The position numbers were made by a program, and so were the translations under genes. The notes below the pieces were generated by a model. It was given only the letters and a program-made list of their open reading frames with translations, searched no databases and was not told where the DNA came from. Positions 11,310 to 46,969 of a stretch of DNA of 64,000 nucleotides are shown here, in pieces. The stretch comes from Mesodorylaimus sp. YZB2_4. Its lineage: Eukaryota; Nematoda; Enoplea; Dorylaimida; Dorylaimidae. How positions within the stretch are numbered: the stretch's first letter is position 1; every line of letters begins with the position of its first letter. Location of the stretch: assembly GCA_030248295.1 (NCBI GenBank), contig JASANH010000770.1:930001-994000 (forward strand), in the 5' to 3' direction.

Positions 11310-12848
11310 CCCGTGAGTCATTCATTCTTTATTCATGACCAAATGCATAAAAGCACACTCAAGGATCATGAAACATGCTAAAAACACTACTCCACACACA
11401 AAGGGAAAATGTCATGTCATTGACGAAATTGGCACTTGTCACACCAGGATCTGAACCAGTTTGAAGTACCCCAAGCAACATCCAACGGCACAGTATTCCA
11501 CAAAGTCATTGCCGAGAAAATAAAACATTGCTTATATGACTCAAAGTTATGCCTTGGGACCAATAAATGGTGATCTATGTCATTTAATCGAGCACTAGCG
11601 CGAACAGTATCTGATTTATGCAAGAAACGCGAGTTTGGAAAGTCATGAAGGCCATGATAAAACTTATAAAACTGGCACAACTTCAAGCGCTTCCTTCTAC
11701 AATAAAGACTACTCCAACCTGCCTTTGCTAATCCATCCTCATAAGAAATTCTAAAATCATTCAAATATAACCTCAGAGCGTAAAAATGTGCGCGCTCTAA
11801 TTCATCAACGTCCTTTTTCAACGTCGGGTCCCAGCATGCTGCCCCATACTCTAGCACAGAGCGAATTCACGTATTATAAACTTTTCCTAAAACACGCGGG
11901 TCCACGTGCCTGCCAAGCCTTCTTCTCAATGCCCCTATTAGCCTTGCGAACTACGTTAGACACATGAGCACTAAACTTCATATTAGAATCAAAAAGTACG
12001 CCAAGATATACTACCTCATCCCTGAACTCCAGTTTGTGACCTCGTAAGAGTAACGAGGGTTGATAAGGCAGCTTACCATGGCCATACCGAAAGATGATCG
12101 CTTGCGATTTATCGAGATTGAAATCGAGACCAGCGGACTCGACCCATGATGAGACGTAATCAATCGCTGGTTGTAGTAGCCGCTCCGCATCTTGCAATAA
12201 TTTCGGTGCGGCGAACATGCCAGTATCATCTGCGTATCCCTGAAAATGGATTTCCGGAAATCGATTCTGGAAGCCGCATAATAATGAGTCAATGAAAGAA
12301 ACGAAAAATAAGGGCCCCAGTATGCTGCCCTGAGGCACTCCAGACGCAGCATGCACAATGTCTGAAGAACAGTCGTCCACGACAACCCGCTGACTACGGT
12401 CAGATAAATAAGAGGAGAGCCAACGAATAAGCTTCGACGGTACGCGATGCTCAAATTGGAGACGACGTAGCAGCAGAGTATGAGGGACTTGGTCGGAGGC
12501 TTTCTTAAAATCGAGGAAGACACCGATGACGAATTTGCAGGATTTTGAATTCAATGAGTCATGAATAAACTGGCTGGCTGAGATCAATGCACTGTTTGTA
12601 CCACGGCGCTTGCAGAATCCATGTTGATGAGAGGATATACGAATATGAGATCGGAGCAATTGGTTAACATGACATTCAGGTGTGAATGGGCGAACTTGCA
12701 TCATATAAACCAGCCGAGCTCCCAATATATGTACAGTACACAAGTGATGTGCCCAACACGAGGCCGGTGGAGTGTGGTATTTGGATAGTATATTTAGAAT
12801 CTGCACCCTGCTAGGCAGACACGCGTCAGCATCTCTTTGTGACCGCAA
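11310..12848 (-). mobile_element. 5'-truncated non-LTR retrotransposon (Jockey/CR1-like RT), copy 1
   Basis: On the minus strand, 12848-11874 encodes a reverse transcriptase with motifs DFKKASDQVPHTLLL, SGVPQGSILGPLFFVSFIDS and the catalytic YADD (GYADDTGMF). After a frame break near 11870, a second frame (11857-11417) continues with the conserved downstream region (LEYGAACWDPTLKKDVDELE). No endonuclease domain is present, so the 5' end is missing. The 3' end near 11310 is a short A/T-rich tail resembling ATGAATAAAGAATGAATGA. The frameshift makes this copy inactive. It is homologous to the copy at 14640-22622. Confidence 0.88.
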
Positions 12849-14636: not shown

Positions 14637-14740
14637 CAATCAGTGCTTGCGCATGTGAAGCGGTGACAGTGCACCCGTCACCGCTTCACAATTCATTCAT
14701 GACTCTCTCAACGCCAAAAAATGCAAGTACGTGGAGGGCG

Positions 14741-14902
14741 TGTAGTATGTTCACCCGCCACGCGCCAAGCGACTTTACTAGACGGCGACCCGGGACAAGA
14801 CTACTTAGTTAGTCCACATCGGCACACACTACGAGACCAGACACAAAAGGTTGAATGGCATGATTAGAACCAGTTATAAGTAAACATCACGTTATCACTA
14901 CA
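14741..14902 (-). repeat. 3' LTR of the Gypsy element
   Basis: 162 bp starting TG and ending CA on either strand, matching 21275-21436 except for two visible substitutions near 14877-14884. The tract just inside it is only weakly purine-rich, so the polypurine tract is not obvious. Confidence 0.9.
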
Positions 14903-14971
14903 TCACACCCTCACACGTCCCCGTGTGACGCAAAAAAAAAGAAACGAGAAAGGAAAAAAAAAACAAACAAA

Positions 14972-15961
14972 TCACCATAAGTCACGCTTGGACCGATGAC
15001 GTCGATCATGTTGGGCACGAGGAAGTGTCTGAGTCGAATAGGGCGAACGTGGTCTTGATGAGCGGAAACGATCGTAACGTGGTGGAGGGCTGGGCGCGGG
15101 TGTGGACTGGCGGCGAGCTCGAGGTCTGGATCGGGACCGTGATCGTGATCGCGTTCGGGACGAGGCACGTAGCTGTGCGCTACGAGCGGGCTGTACGGTA
15201 TCTCTGACAGGAGGACCCAATCGAAGGAAGACTGACCCTTCCCGTCGCCTACCAGGTGTAGTCACGGCAGGAGACGTCGCTCGCCCGTCGGGCGTGTCAT
15301 CGAGGACGACATCCACTGTACCCAACGACGAGCAATCTGAACAGACTTCGACATCCTCGAGAAACTGTAGTGATCCATCCGCCTGAGAATGATCACGCAC
15401 CTGATCCGACAGGGATTGATATTCACGCTTCCGCACCCGACTTCGGACTAGGCGTGGAATGGCTTCACGTCGGACCATGCCCTGGAATGCCAAGAATCGT
15501 TGACACAGCATATTAAATCGAGAAACAGACAAATTCGCCTCCTAAAATCGACAAGCTGCCCACACGTAATAAGAGTGCTCGAAGGCTCGGAGTTGTCCCA
15601 GGGAGAGCCTCGAGTTATCAAAATCCCGCAGAGTACGTATGGCAGGGGACCTATAGAACTGATGAGACTCCCGCAATAAAGCCTTTTCCCGCTGAGAAAG
15701 CCTATCACCCTCCAAAGGCAGTTCCCAAAATTCTGGAAACCTCGGGTCCAAATCACTCTCGGCTGGGCCCACCAAGGGCGGCATAGAATGAGCTAACTGA
15801 GGCGCCTTCACTGGCACCCCCGACGGCTCCCTGTGATGAGTACAGTTGACTAACAAAGCTCGGCCCAGACGATCCGAAGCAAAACTCGATTCGCCTCCCA
15901 GGCGTCGTCCAGGAGACCCAAATCGATGCCACCGTTCCTGACACCGCCACCGAAAACTCAT
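14972..15961 (-). pseudogene. Gypsy ORF3: SR-rich protein interrupted by one in-frame TAG
   Basis: The frame runs about 330 codons from an ATG at 15961, with a single TAG at 15542-15544 separating an N-terminal part (139 codons) from the rest. Sequence on both sides reads as one helical, Arg-rich region (FEHSYYVWAACRF then EANLSVSRFNMLCQRF), which suggests a lost sense codon or readthrough. The C-terminal part holds a true RS tract (RTRSRSRSRSRPRARR) followed by more Ser/Arg/Pro. It occupies the position of env in other Gypsy elements, but I see no signal peptide or membrane segment. A good acceptor (TTTTGTTTTAG) lies 2 nt before the ATG, suggesting expression from a spliced RNA. The function is unknown; nuclear or RNA binding is only an inference from the RS tract. 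Confidence 0.65.
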
Positions 15962-16138
15962 CACTAAAACAAAACGCAAAAACGAGGAGCTCGTTAAACA
16001 ATTAGGGTGGAAACAGGGCCCTCACAACCAAACATCGTAATTCAGACTAGAAAGAAAAAAAAACGTTAGCAGTGGACAGACAGAAACCCGGTGCAAAACA
16101 AATAGACACAAAACAGAACGCAAGACCATGCCACTGGT

Positions 16139-19100
16139 TCAGTCGCTTGCATCAATGTCCGCTCGACGTGCTTGCGCTGCGGCGAACTCCTCCAACTGAG
16201 CCATGGCTGTGCGAACCGCCTTTTTCTGAGAAGCATGCATCGCCTTTGTCTCGAAATATGGCTCGATGTCTTTCAGGTGCACAAAAGCCTGGCGATCACG
16301 ATCATTGAAAAAATAAACTAATATCCAAGGACCCTTTGTACGCGGTTTTGGACCTTTGGCTTCCGACTCTGGCAGTACACGAGCAGGCCACCAAGGAATA
16401 TATTTGAGTTTAGCCCACACCAAAGAGCCAGGTACTAATTGCGAAGTCTGCCCACCGGGCGTGGTATTCGGGTCGTGACTCTTCGATTCCTCGATGTCCA
16501 CCCACTGATCGTTCTCAGATTCTGGATCGTCCTCCGGACGTCCTGACACTGACCCCCGATATAGTTGCAAGTGATTCACGTGAATGAGCTTGTCAGCGCC
16601 AGCCCAAAGCAACGGACGAATGCATGCGGTCACTTGCGATGGCATTGCGACAATACGATATGGACCCGAAAAACGATCACATAGTTTGGCAGACAAACGT
16701 CGTGGTGCTGCATTCCTCCTAAGCATGACCAATGAACCGACTTTAAAAGGAATTTCGTGGGCTGCTCTGTTATACTGGTTAGCCTGCTGTTCCTGAGCTG
16801 CGGAAATCGATTTGCGCACTTCGGTGTAAGCATCGGCTAAACGCTTTTTCAACTGCACTACATAGTCGCGGGCTAAATATTGCTGTGAGTCATCCGAACC
16901 AAAGGCGCTATCGAATGGAAACGGCAAGTCACGGCCATAGACCAGTGTGGCTATTGAGTAACCCGTGGATGAGTGCACACTCGAGCGAAAGGCAAATAAG
17001 GCAACCGGAATGAATAAGTCCCAATCTTCCTGATGCGCACTCGCGTAGACTGCAATGCTGTCGATCAAAACCTTGTTATACCGTTCGACTTGTCCATCGC
17101 ACTGTGGGTGATATGCTGTAGTGGATAACTTACGGATGTCCAGAAAGCGACAAATACCACGAAACAGATCGGATGTGAATTGAGACCCCAAATCAGACAA
17201 AACTGTACGCGGGCATCCAAAGCGACAAATAATATGCTCCACGAAAATCTGTGCGATGGTTTCAGTCCTGCAATCAGGCATTGCGACTGCTTCCGGCCAC
17301 TTTGTAAATGCATCGATGAGCACTAAGATGTACTGATTGCCAGCGCGTGTAGTTGTCATTGGTCCAACGATATCCAAACTGATACGTTCGAATGGATTAC
17401 CCACTGGGATCGAAACCAAAGGTGCTTTCCCCCACTTATGCGGCGACTTACGACGAGCACAAATCAAACAAGTACGGCAGTAGTTGTGCACATCCTTACG
17501 CATCGATGGCCAGTAGACACGGTCCATAAGACGAGTCAAGGTGCGTTCTTCTCCCATGTGACCCGCCAGAGGATCGTTTTGAAATGCTGCCAAGACTTCC
17601 TGCTTCAGACTGGACGGTAAGGCAAGAACTGAGCCTGTGATATTACGAGATTTGCGACGGCGCGGAAAACAAAAACGAAGAACTGAGCCCCTATCTCCCT
17701 GCAGAAAGTATGACTCTGCCAGCTTCGCCAGTTCCTCTCTCTCCCCTTCAACGCAGGTACCAGCCTCCACAAAATCGATAATACGCTTCAAAAATGGATC
17801 TTCTTCTTGCTCTCTTCGCAGCACTGTATCATCCAAGAATGCCAATTCGTCCTCCGCCACGCGCTCTTCCCCGTCCTCTCTGACTGATGTACCCAAACCT
17901 ATAGGTGCCAGCGTTGCATGGGTGGTACCCGAGATCATGCGAACCATGCTCGAAGAAGGCTCCACAGTAGGAAGGCGAGACAATGCGTCCGCGTGACCCT
18001 GAGCTGTACCAGGACGATAAAGGACTTGGAAATCATAGCCTTGCAACTGCTCAATAAATCTGCCCCAGCGAGGGCTATCTTCAATCTCCTTGGTCGTATG
18101 CCACGCCGTCAATGCTCGATGATCAGTGAAAACCAAGAAAGGGCGCCCATACAGATAAGTTCGAAATTTCTTGATACCAAAGAACACAGCCAATGCTTCT
18201 CTGTCGGTAGTGCTGTAGTTCCTCTCCGCCGTAGTCAATGTTCGTGAGGCGTACGCGATCACCCACCAGATGTTTGGTTCTCCAGGTTGGTACTGTTCTA
18301 AAATGGCACCTAACCCAGCTCCGGACGCATCAGTGCTCAATGCAAATGGAAGCTCGAAATTCGGAAAGCGAAGGATTGGCTCAGAAAGTAGAATATCACG
18401 CAAGGCCACAAATGCCGAGGCACAGTCCTCAGTCCACACGAAAGGCACACCCTTCTTGGTCAGTTGATACAGCGGAGCGGCGACCACAGAAAACCCTTTG
18501 ATAAACCGACGATAATGATTGACTAAACCCAAGAAAGACGAAACGTCGCCAGGTGACTTCGGTACTGCCATATCACGCAATGGTGTCGTGGTCTCTGGGT
18601 CAGGGCAAATCCCAAGCTTTGAAACGATGTGACCCAAAAATGGTACTTCAGCCTGCGCAAAACTGCACTTGCTTGGTTTGAGTTTCAGGTTGGCACCACG
18701 AAGACGGTTAAAGACTAATTGCAGATCTTCAAAATGTTGTGCTACCGACTGAGAGAATATGATGAGGTCGTCCAAATAAGCCAATATTTGACGCCAACTC
18801 AACCCCGCCAAGAGAAAGTCAACAGCCCGGTCAAATGTTGCTGGTGCATTAGCTAAGCCAAATGGCATTCGTGTCCACTCGTACAAGCCATCTTCGCAGA
18901 TGAACGCGGTCTTCTCGCGTGACTTTGGATCCAATGGTATCTGCCAATAACCTGACTGCATGTCACAAACACTGAAAATGACGCTGCCTTGCAACTTGTT
19001 CAAAAGAGTCTCAATGTGAGGTAGCGGGAAAACGTCCTTCTTGGTGACGGCGTTCAACCAGCGATAATCCACGCAGAAACGCCAGGAGCCATCAGCTTTC

Positions 19101-19396
19101 TTGACTAGAAGAGTCGGGGACGCCCACGGACTGCAAGAGTGAGTCAAGACACCATTCTTGAGGCCTTCTTCAACTTGACGACGTATTTCCTCTTGTTTGG
19201 CCTGCGGAACCCGGTATGGCTGTCGTTTGACTGGTGCAGCATCTCCTGTGTCAATGTAATGATGGACGCCTGGCATACACCCCAAATCCTTATCCGACTC
19301 AGCAAAGATGTCTGCGTTTTGACACATCATGTCCACGAAGGCTGCTTGCTCTTCATCTGTTAGACATGCTGTAGAAATGTTAAACTTTGAACGCAA
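16139..19396 (-). CDS. pol: Gypsy pol: reverse transcriptase, RNase H, integrase, C-terminal PWWP domain
   Basis: The frame has about 1,085 codons. RT has VCDMQSGYWQI (Asp about 145) and YLDD (about 207-210). RNase H has STDASGAG (Asp about 356), TDREAL and FTDHRAL. The integrase zinc finger region (GHMGEERTL...YCRTCLIC) keeps one His and both Cys, but the first His appears as Gln. The catalytic core is DD35E: D675 (SLDIVGP), D735 (SDLGSQF) and E771 (GQVERYN). A GPY/F module follows (FSGPYRI). After a polar linker comes a PWWP-type domain (about 990-1050) with SLVWAKLKYIPWWPARV and WILVYFFNDRDRQAFV, then a helical tail. No protease domain precedes RT; the DTG near residue 50 belongs to the conserved RT leader. 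The frame overlaps the end of gag, so frameshifting would be needed. Confidence 0.93.
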   Translation of the reverse strand: MRSKFNISTACLTDEEQAAFVDMMCQNADIFAESDKDLGCMPGVHHYIDTGDAAPVKRQPYRVPQAKQEEIRRQVEEGLKNGVLTHSCSPWASPTLLVKKADGSWRFCVDYRWLNAVTKKDVFPLPHIETLLNKLQGSVIFSVCDMQSGYWQIPLDPKSREKTAFICEDGLYEWTRMPFGLANAPATFDRAVDFLLAGLSWRQILAYLDDLIIFSQSVAQHFEDLQLVFNRLRGANLKLKPSKCSFAQAEVPFLGHIVSKLGICPDPETTTPLRDMAVPKSPGDVSSFLGLVNHYRRFIKGFSVVAAPLYQLTKKGVPFVWTEDCASAFVALRDILLSEPILRFPNFELPFALSTDASGAGLGAILEQYQPGEPNIWWVIAYASRTLTTAERNYSTTDREALAVFFGIKKFRTYLYGRPFLVFTDHRALTAWHTTKEIEDSPRWGRFIEQLQGYDFQVLYRPGTAQGHADALSRLPTVEPSSSMVRMISGTTHATLAPIGLGTSVREDGEERVAEDELAFLDDTVLRREQEEDPFLKRIIDFVEAGTCVEGEREELAKLAESYFLQGDRGSVLRFCFPRRRKSRNITGSVLALPSSLKQEVLAAFQNDPLAGHMGEERTLTRLMDRVYWPSMRKDVHNYCRTCLICARRKSPHKWGKAPLVSIPVGNPFERISLDIVGPMTTTRAGNQYILVLIDAFTKWPEAVAMPDCRTETIAQIFVEHIICRFGCPRTVLSDLGSQFTSDLFRGICRFLDIRKLSTTAYHPQCDGQVERYNKVLIDSIAVYASAHQEDWDLFIPVALFAFRSSVHSSTGYSIATLVYGRDLPFPFDSAFGSDDSQQYLARDYVVQLKKRLADAYTEVRKSISAAQEQQANQYNRAAHEIPFKVGSLVMLRRNAAPRRLSAKLCDRFSGPYRIVAMPSQVTACIRPLLWAGADKLIHVNHLQLYRGSVSGRPEDDPESENDQWVDIEESKSHDPNTTPGGQTSQLVPGSLVWAKLKYIPWWPARVLPESEAKGPKPRTKGPWILVYFFNDRDRQAFVHLKDIEPYFETKAMHASQKKAVRTAMAQLEEFAAAQARRADIDASD

Positions 19397-20948
19397 TCTG
19401 CTGCTTGCAATACTTGCATCCCCCAGCTAGAGCGACTCGACGCGGACAATCCCGCTGCAAATGATCGCCATTGCAGATAAAGCAGCGTTTGACCATTTCA
19501 GTGTGTCGAGGTGACTGAGAAGAATGCCCTTTACCTACAAATGCTCCAAATTGAGCGGGTGGATTATATGAAGGTGGCCAGATCGGCTTCGATGCAGAGG
19601 GAGCGTTATTCAAATATGATTCCCAATGTCGAGCAGACTTGATCAATTCGTCCAACGTATAATTATCGCCCATTCGATCCTGAGCTACCTTATCTGCTAT
19701 CTCCGCTCGTAGGTTCACGCGCATCGCATCACGAATCATCTTATCCCGTGCAGGGGATGGAACATCAGGGTACGCCTTTGACGCGAGTGTTTGAAGCTGG
19801 GACGCGAATTCCTGAACCGATTCTGTTACACCTTGCTTCCTATTACGAAAAGCGTCCACCCGTGTCTGCTCTGTGTCTTCCCGAATATACAACCGACGCA
19901 AGCGAGTGCGAACCACGTGCCAAGTTGACCGCTCTTTATGTGGCCACTCCGAGAAATCGATCAATGGTTGACCCCGCAAGTACAGATACAAACCGCGGAC
20001 ACGATCGTCGTCGGACCAATCCATCATGATCGCGCCATTCTCATAGGCCACCAACCACGCGCGGAAGTCCTGTGTCGGTAAATTCTCGAATGGAGGAACC
20101 TCTGGCTTGATTGGACGAAACGGTCTTGGCGCCACAGGTGCTGCGACGGACCGAGATGATAATGCCGCGCCCTCCGGGCGTGAATACACTACTTCAGGCT
20201 GGAGAGCGGGACGACTGTCTGGGAATGGAATTGGATGGGCGTGTTCCCTGTTATTCGACAAACGACTACTGCACGAATCAGCATCCTGCCGTTGTGCTAA
20301 GCGAGCCTCCAACTCCCGAATCTTTCCTTCCAGTTCCTGCTGCCTACGGTGAGCGCAATGCAACTCATTCAGATGACGAATATTTTCTTCGATTGAGGGA
20401 CGAAGCTGCTCTGCGTCACGACGAGTGATCGGCGGTGTATCACGCAACAGATTACGGTTCTGAGGTATCTGAAACCGCGCATCTGGGACAGGATCACCTT
20501 CCAGAGTAGACAAATCGAACTGAGCGGACCCTCGATCACCGCGATTAGGTTGTGTACTACGGCCACCGTTCAAGTCGCGCGCTGACTGCTGCGAAGTAGG
20601 GACGCCTACACCCGCGGGAGATGTAGCCTGCGAGGGGGGATCCGTATACAGAATAGGAAATCTACACCCGTCCAAAAATGCATCGTCGACGGGAGAGTTT
20701 GGGTTGAGCTGCTTCAACTGAATGCGAAAATACGCGCGAATACGACAGATAAGCTCATCGCGTCCCACGCGTGACTGATCCAACAGATTGTCCATCGAAA
20801 TGTCTTTATGCAGACAGAAATTCACCAGGTACCGCAAAGGCAGGTCACTCAGATCCCGAAGAGCATACTCCCGTGCCAAGTCAACACTATCACGACCAAT
20901 AACTACATTCGACTGGTCCGCCACCTCCGGCGGTGCATCGGTCGCCAT
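19380..20948 (-). CDS. gag: Gypsy gag polyprotein
   Basis: This frame has 522 codons from an ATG. A capsid-like region in the middle contains FRAWLVAYENGAIMMDWSDD and a retrotransposon-gag segment with TRVDAFRNRKQGVTESVQEF. Near the C-terminus is a CCHC-type zinc knuckle (CFICNGDHLQRDC) and the start of a second one (CKYC) that is cut short before the stop. Pol begins in another frame over the last few codons. The truncated second knuckle together with the absent protease points to a deletion at the gag-pol junction. Confidence 0.88.
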   Translation of the reverse strand: MATDAPPEVADQSNVVIGRDSVDLAREYALRDLSDLPLRYLVNFCLHKDISMDNLLDQSRVGRDELICRIRAYFRIQLKQLNPNSPVDDAFLDGCRFPILYTDPPSQATSPAGVGVPTSQQSARDLNGGRSTQPNRGDRGSAQFDLSTLEGDPVPDARFQIPQNRNLLRDTPPITRRDAEQLRPSIEENIRHLNELHCAHRRQQELEGKIRELEARLAQRQDADSCSSRLSNNREHAHPIPFPDSRPALQPEVVYSRPEGAALSSRSVAAPVAPRPFRPIKPEVPPFENLPTQDFRAWLVAYENGAIMMDWSDDDRVRGLYLYLRGQPLIDFSEWPHKERSTWHVVRTRLRRLYIREDTEQTRVDAFRNRKQGVTESVQEFASQLQTLASKAYPDVPSPARDKMIRDAMRVNLRAEIADKVAQDRMGDNYTLDELIKSARHWESYLNNAPSASKPIWPPSYNPPAQFGAFVGKGHSSQSPRHTEMVKRCFICNGDHLQRDCPRRVALAGGCKYCKQQIAFKV

Positions 20949-21274
20949 GCTGGCGTGAGTATCACAACTATTCGAGGATGGTGGAGATACGCCAAAAACA
21001 AGCTGCCAATAGTCCAGTGCGTGACGGTGAGGTGACGCTCCCCAAAACGCTACGCCTCAATCGCTGGCCTACACTCAAGTAAGAAAACTTGTGTTACCTG
21101 GAAGGCGTCAGACACTGTCCCGATATAGAACGATTGAGGTTGGTGACTTGGCCGTGCGAACGTCCAATCTGCTCAATCTGCTCGTTCGATCAATTGATCG
21201 GCCCCCGGCCGTCGGATGGTTTCACATCAAAAGAAAAGAGAAAAAAAGGCAGCAAACGTGGGCCGACGCACCAG

Positions 21275-21436
21275 TGTAGTATGTTCACCCGCCACGCGCC
21301 AAGCGACTTTACTAGACGGCGACCCGGGACAAGACTACTTAGTTAGTCCACATCGGCACACACTACGAGACCAGACACAAAAGGTTGAATGGCATGATTA
21401 GAACCAGTTATGAGTAATCATCACGTTATCACTACA
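21275..21436 (-). repeat. 5' LTR of the Gypsy element
   Basis: 162 bp, nearly identical to 14741-14902. The reverse strand enters the leader with CTGGTGCGTCGGCC, which can serve as a tRNA primer site. Confidence 0.9.
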
Positions 21437-22622
21437 GGCGTGTTTCTTGCCTTTAAGAAGGCATTTGATCAGGTTTCGCATAGCTTGTTAATTCGCCGTC
21501 TACACATAGTGCACCACATTCCCGTCAAAATAACCAGATGGCTGGCTTCGTATCTTTGTGGCCGAACTCAACGTGTGGTGATCGGTGATTGTGCTTCGAG
21601 TATTGCGGCGGTCACTTCCGGTGTCCCGGATGGAAGTATCTTGGGACCATCTTTATTTGTCGCCTTTATTGATTCATTGCTTTGTGAATTTAAGCTGCAG
21701 TTTCCATCTCTGCTCCTGCAGGCCTACGCGGACGATACGGGCCTTTTCATTCCGATCACGGATCCGTCTGATTTTTAAAAATTCGCTCAGCCAGCGATTG
21801 ATGTCATTTCTGCTTGGGTCGCCAAATCTGGTTTGGATTTCAATGTGTCGAAATCGCAGGCTATTGTCTTCAAATATGGAAATAACAAAATTTCTCCACC
21901 GACTTTATTCCTTCGAGGTCATCCGCTGGACTACCTTACCGAGGTAAAATATTTGGGCGTCCTTTTCTCAGCTGACATGAAATTCAGTGAGCACGTCTCT
22001 GCGGTTGTTAAAAAGTGCAATATTATGATTGGTGATCTCAGGCGTAAGTTAGGAAGGCATGTGTTGCCTGTGCTTAAAAACGTTTACGAATCGTGTGTAA
22101 GGTCTGTTCTTGAATATGGTTGTGTGGCGTGGGACCCGATTTTAAAGTCTGATATTGCTCATTTAGAACGTGAAAATTTTTATGCACTTCGACCTTTTAT
22201 AAACGATTTCATGGCTCCGTATGAAACAGGTCTAGCATCAACTGGCTGGTCATCTTTGTATGCTCGCAGAAAACTTTAGAAGCTTTATCAGTTTTGTAAG
22301 TACCATCATGGTATTCACGACTTTTGCAATGTGCGCTTTGTTCATAGGGCGGAGTTTCGCACCAGCGAAAGGATCTCGGAACCCCATCATCTTGTCACGC
22401 CTACGCCATTTAATGAATCTTATAAGCATTGCTTTTTGTATTCAGCGATTGAGCTATGGAATGATTTACCTGATGATGTAGCTTTTTCGGGTTTGTCGAA
22501 TTTTAGATCTGTGATTGCTAATAGACATTTTAATTTGTAGTTCTTTTTTCTGCGTGTTTCATACATTTCCAAGTGCGTTTATGCGTTTATGTATGAATGA
22601 AGTATGACATGACATGACATGG

Positions 22623-23401: not shown

Positions 23402-24478
23402 CTAATTCGGGGGACGATTCTGGATATTAGCTATCATACCCGCACTTCGCTGAATACCAGAGTGCGCTTTGTGGCACCTAAAACATCAAAAAGGATAAGT
23501 AAATATTGGAGGCAGAGAACTGCTTACTTACGAGATCTCCCATGGGAAAAAGCGTTTTCTCATTTCTAGGCGTAATTCTTTGTTGAAAATCAAATAAATC
23601 ACGACACTGATTCCATTGTTCAACGGGCCGGTGTACGTGGCGATGAAAAATGCTAGCCAAGGGTTCATATCAACGCCAACAACCATATAGAACCCGATGG
23701 CATTCGTGGCGTAGATGATGCTGCCCAAAAATACTTGCAGAGCTAATCTGAACTGCGTCACTGACTTTTTCTCTTGCTTCAGCTGACTCTGGCTTTTCGG
23801 TATTTGATCCTGGTCGGTCATTGCAGCCGCCACGAGTCGACGGGTTTCTCGATATTTTAACAAAATTTTGGAGTAGCAAAAGGCGCAACAAAAAAGACAA
23901 AACGCGCTACAAATTGTGTCTTCGACCAGATAGAATTTTGCCATGATGTGATTTGGAAAATCCTCGTAATAGCCATCCAAGTAGAAAGTAATGTGGGGCG
24001 GGATAAAGGCCAACGAGGCCCACACAATCGAGTGGAGCCAGGCTGCCGCGATCAGCAGGCCTGTGCGGCGTGGTGTGAAGAAGATAGGATATTTCACGTG
24101 CTGACATGTGGCCGCGTATCGATTGAATGCCAGGACCGCTTGATGCCAGCTCAGATTGCGCCAACCACCAAAATTCGCAACCAAAACTGCCGTGAAGAAG
24201 GTGTCGTTGTAGACATTGCCGTGGAGAAAGATATTCGAGCTGATGATCAGCCACCCGATCAGATTTATACAATCCGAAACTGACAAGCTAAGCATCAGTT
24301 GGTAACACGAATTTCGATAAAATATGGGACAGCGAGCGAAAACCCAGGCCACCAGCAGATAGAGGATGAGCCAAATGAGGCATGGGATGAAAATTACCAA
24401 GCCGATGATGATGTCTTCTGTGTAAGCGGTTGGTGATCGATCGCCTCCAGTATTATTGCCGTTGTCGGCTGCAGCCAT
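23402..24478 (-). CDS. 7TM G-protein-coupled receptor, rhodopsin-like/nematode Srx-like
   Basis: Exon 24478-23532 encodes seven hydrophobic segments. These include IIIGLVIFIPCLIWLILYLL, a second segment with SLSVSDCINLIGWLII, and a last segment (NNGISVVIYLIFNKELR). The motif after TM3 is NRY (AFNRYAAT) instead of DRY, and TM7 lacks a classical NPxxY. The N-terminus has two possible glycosylation sites (NNT, and a second inside the loop). I propose a 54-bp intron (23478-23531, GTAAGT...TTTTAG) and a second exon 23477-23402, giving 340 aa in total. If the intron is retained, a TAA overlapping the donor stops translation two residues later, so the two forms differ only in the C-terminal tail. 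The ligand is unknown. Confidence 0.8.
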
Positions 24479-45760: not shown

Positions 45761-46969
45761 TCAAAACACGCGGCTCCGTTGATCAACATTTGCATCCCGA
45801 TGATCAACACGCTCGTTTGCTGGCCGACCCATTTCCACTGCCGCTTGCTCTGTCGAACTTCGCAAACGATGATGCATCCTTTCCCAGACTGCAACACCTC
45901 TCGCCTTCGCATACCTCCAAGCTGTACGAGGACGAAACCATTTTACCACGGCCCAAAGCGTAACTGCGCCACAGACTGAGCAAATCCATAGGTCCTTCAA
46001 CTGACTCACCAAGTTGTCTACGAATCCCCATGGGGTGTACCGCCGCAAGGTATCCAAAACCTGTCTCGTTGCATTTGACGGTTTTCTGCTGTTGCCCACA
46101 GTGCTCAGCTCTGAGAGGATCTGGTCATGTTCCTCCATCGTCTTGAACACGTCGTTGAGACTTGCCTGTCCTCTAATCTCTTCCACGTTGTAAGCTGTGA
46201 TAGGTTTGTGAATAATTGTGTGAAAGTCCCCAAACACTGCCGATTGGTTCCCAAAAAGAGGTAGCGGAAGTATGGTCCCATTGAACAATCGAGCCGTCCC
46301 GTTCGTACCCTCGTAGACCCATACCTGCCCGTCATCGTCATTCAGGTGTTGTTCTTCCACCAAGTGACACTGTGCTGGTTCTCCACTCCCAAAAATTATC
46401 GACGTTTTTGGATCGAGAAACCCCACCGCCGTGATATGGCCAATCGCGTACCTGATCGGAATCTCCTTGTAACAACGATGCTTCGGCATAGGCAAGAACA
46501 CGAATGAATCCACCGCAACGCAAGGCCAAACATCCAGGATCGTTCCAGTCAGCCTAGCCATTATCTGCTGGTCCCGTAGGCGTCTCCTTGCTACCAACGT
46601 TGGCTCCTGATGCGCGAAAATCAGATCCATGTTCTGCATTTCCACCATCATGTTGCACGTTGACCAAAATGTGTATGCCAATTCCCCGTTCACGTACTCG
46701 TTCCAGCGCAACTCCCAAGCCTGAAACTGCCCAGCTACCGTGTCGCTTGGTACTGGCGCCGCTCCACCTCCAGTGCGCTTGTCTTCTGCTCGCCTTATGC
46801 GCTGATGTGTGTAGTGGTATAGCGTACGACGTAGTGGAATTCCTTGATCCGTCCATACCGCTTTCGTTCCATCGCACATCGTTCGAGTGTCCCGTTCCTC
46901 TGGATCCCAAGTAAGTGCAAAGTCTCGATCCTGGCTCAGAAACTTCCCTTTCCACCAGTTTCCCTGCAT
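45761..46969 (-). CDS. Envelope-like glycoprotein ORF, probably 5'-truncated
   Basis: The frame has 402 codons from an ATG. The ectodomain-like part contains several cysteines and N-glycosylation sequons (NGT twice, NQS, NAT). Near residue 330-350 lies a hydrophobic segment (ICSVCGAVTLWAVV) followed by a basic tail, the layout of a membrane-anchored viral-type glycoprotein. No signal peptide is present at this ATG, so the N-terminus is probably lost. I could not assign the protein to a known envelope class. It is an old or defective element copy and I infer no activity. Confidence 0.6.
   Translation of the reverse strand: MQGNWWKGKFLSQDRDFALTWDPEERDTRTMCDGTKAVWTDQGIPLRRTLYHYTHQRIRRAEDKRTGGGAAPVPSDTVAGQFQAWELRWNEYVNGELAYTFWSTCNMMVEMQNMDLIFAHQEPTLVARRRLRDQQIMARLTGTILDVWPCVAVDSFVFLPMPKHRCYKEIPIRYAIGHITAVGFLDPKTSIIFGSGEPAQCHLVEEQHLNDDDGQVWVYEGTNGTARLFNGTILPLPLFGNQSAVFGDFHTIIHKPITAYNVEEIRGQASLNDVFKTMEEHDQILSELSTVGNSRKPSNATRQVLDTLRRYTPWGFVDNLVSQLKDLWICSVCGAVTLWAVVKWFRPRTAWRYAKARGVAVWERMHHRLRSSTEQAAVEMGRPANERVDHRDANVDQRSRVF

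Follow-up and report, generated by a model that had tools for sequence, protein, structure and literature searches.

The window, by which we mean the whole 64,000-nucleotide stretch of DNA that was analysed, holds a Ty3/Gypsy retrotransposon whose polyprotein ends in a predicted PWWP domain, a histone- and DNA-binding type of domain, fused to the integrase past the GPY/F region. The fusion recurs in divergent Gypsy families of the same genome. By analogy with known integrase tethers, the domain probably acts as a chromatin tether built into the integrase, where it would bias the insertion of new copies.

Results

Layout of the element

The element and its parts, with the evidence for each, are as follows.

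14741-21436, minus strand: Ty3/Gypsy LTR retrotransposon, with LTRs, primer binding site, target-site duplication, gag, pol and a third ORF
21275-21436, minus strand: 5' LTR, 162 nt (TGTAG...TACA), a direct repeat of 14741-14902 with 2 mismatches
14741-14902, minus strand: 3' LTR, 162 nt, a direct repeat of the 5' LTR
21261-21273, minus strand: putative primer binding site TGGTGCGTCGGCC, 1 base past the 5' LTR, read off the sequence
14737-14740, with a second copy at 21437-21440, no strand: target-site duplication CGCC, 4 bp, read off the sequence
19380-20948, minus strand: gag ORF, 522 aa (ORF list), with a zinc-knuckle-like CX2CX3HX4C close to the C-terminus
19398-19401, minus strand: deletion scar at the gag/pol junction of the window copy (blastn against other family copies)
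16139-19396, minus strand: pol ORF, 1085 aa, RT-RNaseH-IN-PWWP, stop codon included (ORF list, Pfam)
18623-19105, minus strand: reverse transcriptase RVT_1, pol residues 98-258 (Pfam E 6.2e-36)
18131-18436, minus strand: RNase H (RT_RNaseH_2), pol residues 321-422 (Pfam E 4.3e-32)
17444-17617, minus strand: integrase H2C2 zinc-binding domain, pol residues 594-651 (Pfam E 1.6e-19)
17105-17395, minus strand: integrase core (rve), pol residues 668-764 (Pfam E 1.3e-11)
16502-16759, minus strand: GPY/F-type region, GPY motif at about residue 911 (SH3_Tf2-1 E 0.08, under the cut-off)
16190-16429, minus strand: predicted PWWP domain, pol residues 990-1069 (Pfam E 1.5e-15; model and fold matches)
15542-15979, minus strand: third ORF, piece 1, 145 aa (ORF list; matches in other family copies)
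14972-15532, minus strand: third ORF, piece 2, Arg/Ser-rich, in frame with piece 1, with an in-frame stop between the two in the window copy

The element belongs to Ty3/Gypsy (Metaviridae) by its domain order, DD35E integrase, GPY motif, LTRs, primer binding site, target-site duplication and relatives. In the window pol, Pfam placed RVT_1, RNase H, H2C2 and rve in that order within a single frame, and a search of a large protein database with this pol returned 5008 matches, of which the 120 listed bear Gypsy-type pol domains in precomputed Pfam annotation. The catalytic triad is D675, D735 and E771, with 35 residues separating the last two; D675 and D735 fall within the rve match, and E771, placed by motif spacing, lies just beyond it. 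The gag ORF matched Retrotrans_gag at E 4.1e-4, under the Pfam cut-off. The LTR of this family had at least 40 matches in the host genome (40 scored of 57 candidates).

The window copy itself is defective, not intact. The split between gag and pol is a scar, because DNA that is present at the junction in other copies is missing here: in blastn comparisons with the eight other copies of the window's family (family A; L009-L016), six have 1,391 extra bases at the junction, a seventh has about 1,150 and the eighth is rearranged. In copies C50 and C122 the PWWP lies in frames of 2,049 and 2,104 aa. The two pieces of the third ORF were each matched, wholly or partly, in all eight of the other family A copies. 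This ORF is a single open frame in L009 and is broken by internal stops in four further copies examined. Piece 1 also matched three copies of sub-group B2 (L023-L025) at 51-53%, and, at E 1e-4, had no match among the B copies L017-L020. No Pfam family scored above its cut-off over 14972-15979. Just upstream of the third ORF, near 16047-16070, lies a stretch resembling a 3' splice site (ctaac, a T-rich run and tag).

The element is flanked by non-LTR-type reverse-transcriptase ORFs on opposite strands (11874-12848, minus; 21410-22279, plus) and seems to be nested in older repeats. Elsewhere in the window, a 316-aa receptor ORF (23528-24478, minus strand) matches the nematode Srt/Srx chemoreceptor families, and a 402-aa ORF (45764-46969, minus strand) matches a Monjiviricetes (chuvirus-like) fusion glycoprotein at E 4.1e-8; to judge from this match, the latter may represent either an endogenised viral gene or another retroelement's env. 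The host genome has 133 matches to Col_cuticle_N, which we take to be a nematode-specific domain; together with the Srt/Srx-like receptor, these make a nematode host probable. A spliced-leader search of the host genome with RF00198 was silent, as it was in every control genome too, and an exact 22-mer, presumably that of the nematode spliced leader SL1, was not found there. Fifteen COX1-like matches (e.g. C73:253316-254668) are scattered, several of them on long contigs and with in-frame TGA, TAG or TAA codons; they are probably nuclear copies of mitochondrial DNA.

Identity and fold of the domain

An earlier note on this DNA had proposed a Gypsy integrase in which a DD35E core and a GPY/F module are followed by a PWWP domain. 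The triad and the GPY motif lie where this proposal would have them, and the PWWP profile PF00855 matched the window pol at 57.9 bits against a cut-off of 25.6, in frame with pol. The 128-aa pol tail, searched by itself, matched the profile at E 6e-17. In the PDB, the best sequence matches of the window PWWP were LEDGF/PSIP1 (3e-9) and MSH6 (1.3e-8), followed by the HDGF family. A chromodomain mistaken for a PWWP was considered as well and was rejected, since PF00385 gave no match to the window pol, even at an E-value limit of 1, and both the PWWP profile and the fold matches were strong.

Five models of the domain scored 80.6, 68.7, 61.7, 51.9 and 43.9, of which only the one at 80.6 was confident. 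This best model predicts strands at 10-15, 18-25, 42-47, 54-58 and 62-64, followed by C-terminal helices at 65-72 and 77-101. Foldseek returned the LEDGF/PSIP1 PWWP as the top match of the model, and VIA-align placed BRPF PWWPs first, within tie range. An earlier single-sequence model, made with no alignment, was too poor for use (pLDDT 59.3) and gave no significant Foldseek match, its best being the BRD1 PWWP at E 1.7. Profile and best model together identify the pol tail as a predicted PWWP domain with a beta-barrel plus C-terminal helices.

An aromatic cage in this barrel, which the earlier note had proposed to look for, was recovered only in part: the PWWP fold stood in the best model, and of the cage W21 and F44 were found by alignment while M15 and Y18 were not. 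In LEDGF the PWWP cage is formed by M15, Y18, W21 and F44 (excerpts of PMC3663649). According to the same excerpts, the substitutions M15A and Y18A strongly decrease specificity for H3K36me3 nucleosomes and affect affinity far less, and W21A and F44A abolish binding, perhaps via folding (PMC3663649). Aligned to LEDGF, and thus independently of the model, the window family has L, I, W and F at positions 15, 18, 21 and 44. None of the 15 aligned element rows has all four LEDGF residues; W21 is kept in 12 and F44 in 14, M stands at position 15 in five, and Y or F stands at position 18 in four (families D, E, F and I). Families D and E combine F18, W21 and F44. L replaces the tryptophan in L026 and L027, half of the four family C rows, and A replaces it in family I; family F has L at the F44 position. 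We note that L026, L027 and L040 (families C and I), in which the cage Trp has become Leu or Ala, still keep the PWWP in long open frames. The domain carries a net charge of +5 in both window-family rows, and of -1 to +4 in the other 13.

By this alignment the methyl-lysine cage of the window family is incomplete. Because L15 and I18 occupy the positions at which M15A and Y18A act in LEDGF, the window-family sequence predicts a folded nucleosome-binding module and no clear H3K36me reader. Families D and E appear to be better candidates for H3K36me readers than the window family.

Spread through the host genome

The expectation that other copies and relatives would carry the domain was borne out. 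A search of the 145-Mb host genome with the 128-aa tail gave 90 matches, among them the window copy and eight copies of full length, 87-98% identical and in one case with a stop, together with further groups near 60% and near 30% identity. The possibility of a one-off fusion, a captured host exon or an assembly error, to which we assign practically no weight, is ruled out by these eight copies, which extend over the full tail, by the families that diverge down to about 30% identity, and by a metagenome pol, P0122, that is described below. The PWWP profile had at least 146 matches in the host genome, all above the cut-off (150 scored of 173 candidates).

We then related these matches to Gypsy integrases. 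The first integrase query gave at least 152 matches (150 scored of 814 candidates), and 78 of the 150 listed are followed on their own strand by a PWWP match no more than 2.5 kb downstream. The integrase-PWWP distances cluster by family, at 481, 508-537, 415-419, 496-499, 559 and 586 bases, plus outliers. Two queries with overlaps merged, using 63 of the 142 rows of the second, gave 186 integrase places; among those listed, 101 have a PWWP within 2.5 kb downstream and 85 are without one, a number that includes broken and contig-end copies. Seen from the other side, 101 of the 146 PWWP matches are paired with an upstream Gypsy integrase match, among the matches listed, and for PWWP matches in open frames of at least 500 aa this is true of 57 out of 60. 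The 45 unpaired matches include element pieces (C5 and C135, that is L062 and L063), and the remainder presumably include host genes. Of the 186 integrase places listed, not one has any of the genome's 70 chromodomain matches within a distance of 4 kb. Many of these 70 belong to short frames (72-74 aa) or to frames about 374-380 aa long, on contigs with high numbers; another repeat family may carry them.

Integrase and PWWP stand in one open frame in nine families, A (that of the window) to I, with sub-groups B2, C2 and C3. The families form about six deep groups (A/B, C, D/E/F, G, H and I), and D and E share 88% identity in their integrases. At E 1e-3, families D, F and G escaped a plain search with the window PWWP; Pfam placed a PWWP above the cut-off in examples of D, F, G, H and I.

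The same genome also holds PWWP-less Gypsy elements (L054, L056, L058, L059, L060 and L061), with short or Pro/Gln-rich tails whose stop lies inside the fetched stretch. The frame of a further element, L057, runs past the end of its stretch, and no PWWP match was found within 2.5 kb downstream of it. Pfam found no PWWP in L054 or L057. Two candidates for PWWP-less relatives of family B, both at about 80% integrase identity, were rejected as intact PWWP-less relatives: in C432 the contig runs out short of the domain, and in C47 the tail is broken, having diverged and stopping past the linker. The frame of L055 (C702) is cut off by a stop within the integrase region, and for that reason this element was omitted from the tail comparison and from the careful trees described below.

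Beyond the host, PF00855 was found in none of the 120 listed database relatives of the window pol, and a chromodomain in 29 of them. With a PWWP-family profile, one of the 120 listed relatives has PF00855, namely P0122, a 1158-aa protein encoded on a 3,688-base contig of a JGI metagenome, with a PWWP at E 8e-14 and the same layout as the window pol. Its identity to L036, a piece from family C2, is 68%, and its source organism could be near the window's host. No relatives were found in viral contigs or prokaryote genome contigs, and a protein search with the window pol tail region gave none among 150 candidates at E <= 0.001.

Retention and number of origins

Copies and families alike retain the PWWP, and its pN/pS is below 1. 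In eight pairs analysed by the Nei-Gojobori method, the PWWP codons gave pN/pS of 0.18-0.57; dS was computable for two pairs (2.08 and 4.19), and pS was saturated in the other six, so that pN/pS overstates the true ratio. Between A and B, the linker before the PWWP gave 0.38 (42 codons) as against 0.29 for the PWWP. The PWWP is more constrained than the linker, though not by much, and since the linker is constrained too, a low pN/pS is not peculiar to the PWWP.

A single origin of the domain would be the simplest reading of these sequences, and the trees allow it. We consider it rather unlikely that the domain was gained more than once, in one event for A/B with D-I and in another for C with the metagenome element, its spread then being partly convergent. 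Such a history would accord with the careful RT tree (40 rows, with P0122 and 22 other database rows included), in which A, B and D-I form a clade at 99/99 apart from C and P0122, and in which the PWWP rows come together in 36% of 200 bootstrap trees. It would also accord with the careful IN tree (44 rows), where three changes are needed and the PWWP rows come together in 14% of bootstrap trees. When all PWWP rows were joined, however, both trees became slightly likelier, by 2.31 log units for RT (p-AU 0.626) and by 0.42 for IN (p-AU 0.513). A quick RT tree of 62 rows, which used 44 of the 120 listed database rows, likewise speaks against repeated gain by uniting all ten PWWP rows in one clade (SH-aLRT 92); in a quick IN tree of 65 rows, 14 PWWP rows fall in two groups. 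A further argument against repeated gain is position 17, where A, B2, C and C2 have Y in common, as opposed to G in D-I, LEDGF and MSH6 (B has H and C3 has F). The PWWP rows are not nested among the chromodomain rows in the RT or IN trees, and the chromodomain rows form no single clade in the sample.

Discussion

From the architecture, fold, spread over families and retention of the domain, we infer that the PWWP probably tethers the complex of integrase and cDNA to nucleosomes. PWWP domains use a methyl-lysine pocket and a basic DNA-binding face, by which contact would be made, and tethering would then bias the insertion sites of new copies. The integrase PWWP would thus do in cis what LEDGF does in trans for lentiviral integrase. 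Because the reader is built into the integrase, these elements may choose insertion sites without a host protein. This reading is supported by the position of the PWWP after the integrase in nine families and by the conservation of W21 and F44 in most rows. It is weakened by the incomplete cage, the low charge in 13 rows, the constrained linker and the PWWP-less Gypsy neighbours.

A more specific scenario would be that an animal Ty3/Gypsy lineage captured a host PWWP and radiated, that its integrases read H3K36me nucleosomes directly, as a self-sufficient parallel to the HIV-LEDGF pair, so that copies enter transcribed gene bodies, and that the fuller cages of families such as D and E and the altered cages of families such as C and I serve different chromatin targets. 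We offer this scenario tentatively and think it somewhat doubtful as a whole, and for the window family H3K36me specificity and gene-body targeting, argued from LEDGF, are speculative. The host genome encodes an SRI domain, which we take to be that of SETD2, in two adjacent matches (one at E 4.8e-9, which has an internal stop, and one at 1.6e-5); H3K36 trimethylation is therefore expected in this host.

The PWWP could instead have kept its fold as a general DNA/nucleosome or protein-protein module that does not read methyl-lysine, for example by raising chromatin affinity or by multimerising the integrase. Such a module would fit the free variation at positions 15 and 18, and also the loss of W21 from family I and half of the family C rows alongside a persistent fold motif. 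It would fit, too, the behaviour of LEDGF M15A and Y18A, which lose specificity and much less of their affinity (excerpts of PMC3663649). The persistence of W21 and F44 in most rows, and the F18-W21-F44 set of D and E, point the other way, although both residues may be kept for folding alone. On balance we judge a general module of this kind unlikely. A role after integration, in which the domain would bind nucleosomes formed on DNA of the element itself or bring in host factors that protect or silence copies, is very improbable. The Arg/Ser-rich third ORF shows that the element invests in other functions, which is nothing direct; and because the PWWP sits on the end of the integrase that chromoviruses use for targeting, its fusion there indicates the integration step.

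We did not find a PWWP-integrase architecture described in the titles and abstract openings of the open-access PMC papers that our searches covered, nor in excerpts of PMC12147562, PMC8149907, PMC4176367, PMC11054761, PMC6877644 and PMC12460157, which agrees with the impression of the earlier note that it is not standard for Gypsy elements. If the tether reading is right, the integrase PWWP would form a second class of built-in reader, drawn from the very domain family that HIV borrows. With cage-variant families that share the rest of pol, and with PWWP-less Gypsy elements beside them, this one genome would offer a natural experiment on insertion patterns.

Comparison with known systems

Known means of steering a retroelement integrase are a host tether (LEDGF, BET proteins, Sir4) and a built-in chromodomain. 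In chromoviruses the chromodomain follows the GPY/F module, and the PWWP at the integrase C-terminus occupies the equivalent place, just as the earlier note had seen it. According to excerpts of PMC3350952, the chromodomain of chromoviruses sits at the C-terminus of the integrase, and the MAGGY version targets H3K9me chromatin. The present elements resemble MAGGY and Tf1 in joining a Royal-family reader to the C-terminus of a Gypsy integrase, and differ from them in having a PWWP in place of the chromodomain and in not nesting among the chromodomain rows in the trees. As described in excerpts of PMC8149907 and PMC4176367, the PWWP of LEDGF binds H3K36me3 nucleosomes, and LEDGF tethers HIV integrase and directs integration. 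LEDGF/p75 (PSIP1) provides the top match to our domain both in sequence and in Foldseek, and the two likely do the same job; LEDGF, however, is a separate host protein that binds integrase via its IBD, whereas here the integrase polypeptide itself contains the PWWP. The Ty5 targeting peptide and the MoMLV IN tail are further cases in which the C-terminal tail of an integrase steers insertion (excerpts of PMC4176367). Those tails recruit a host chromatin protein, whereas here the element carries the reader itself.
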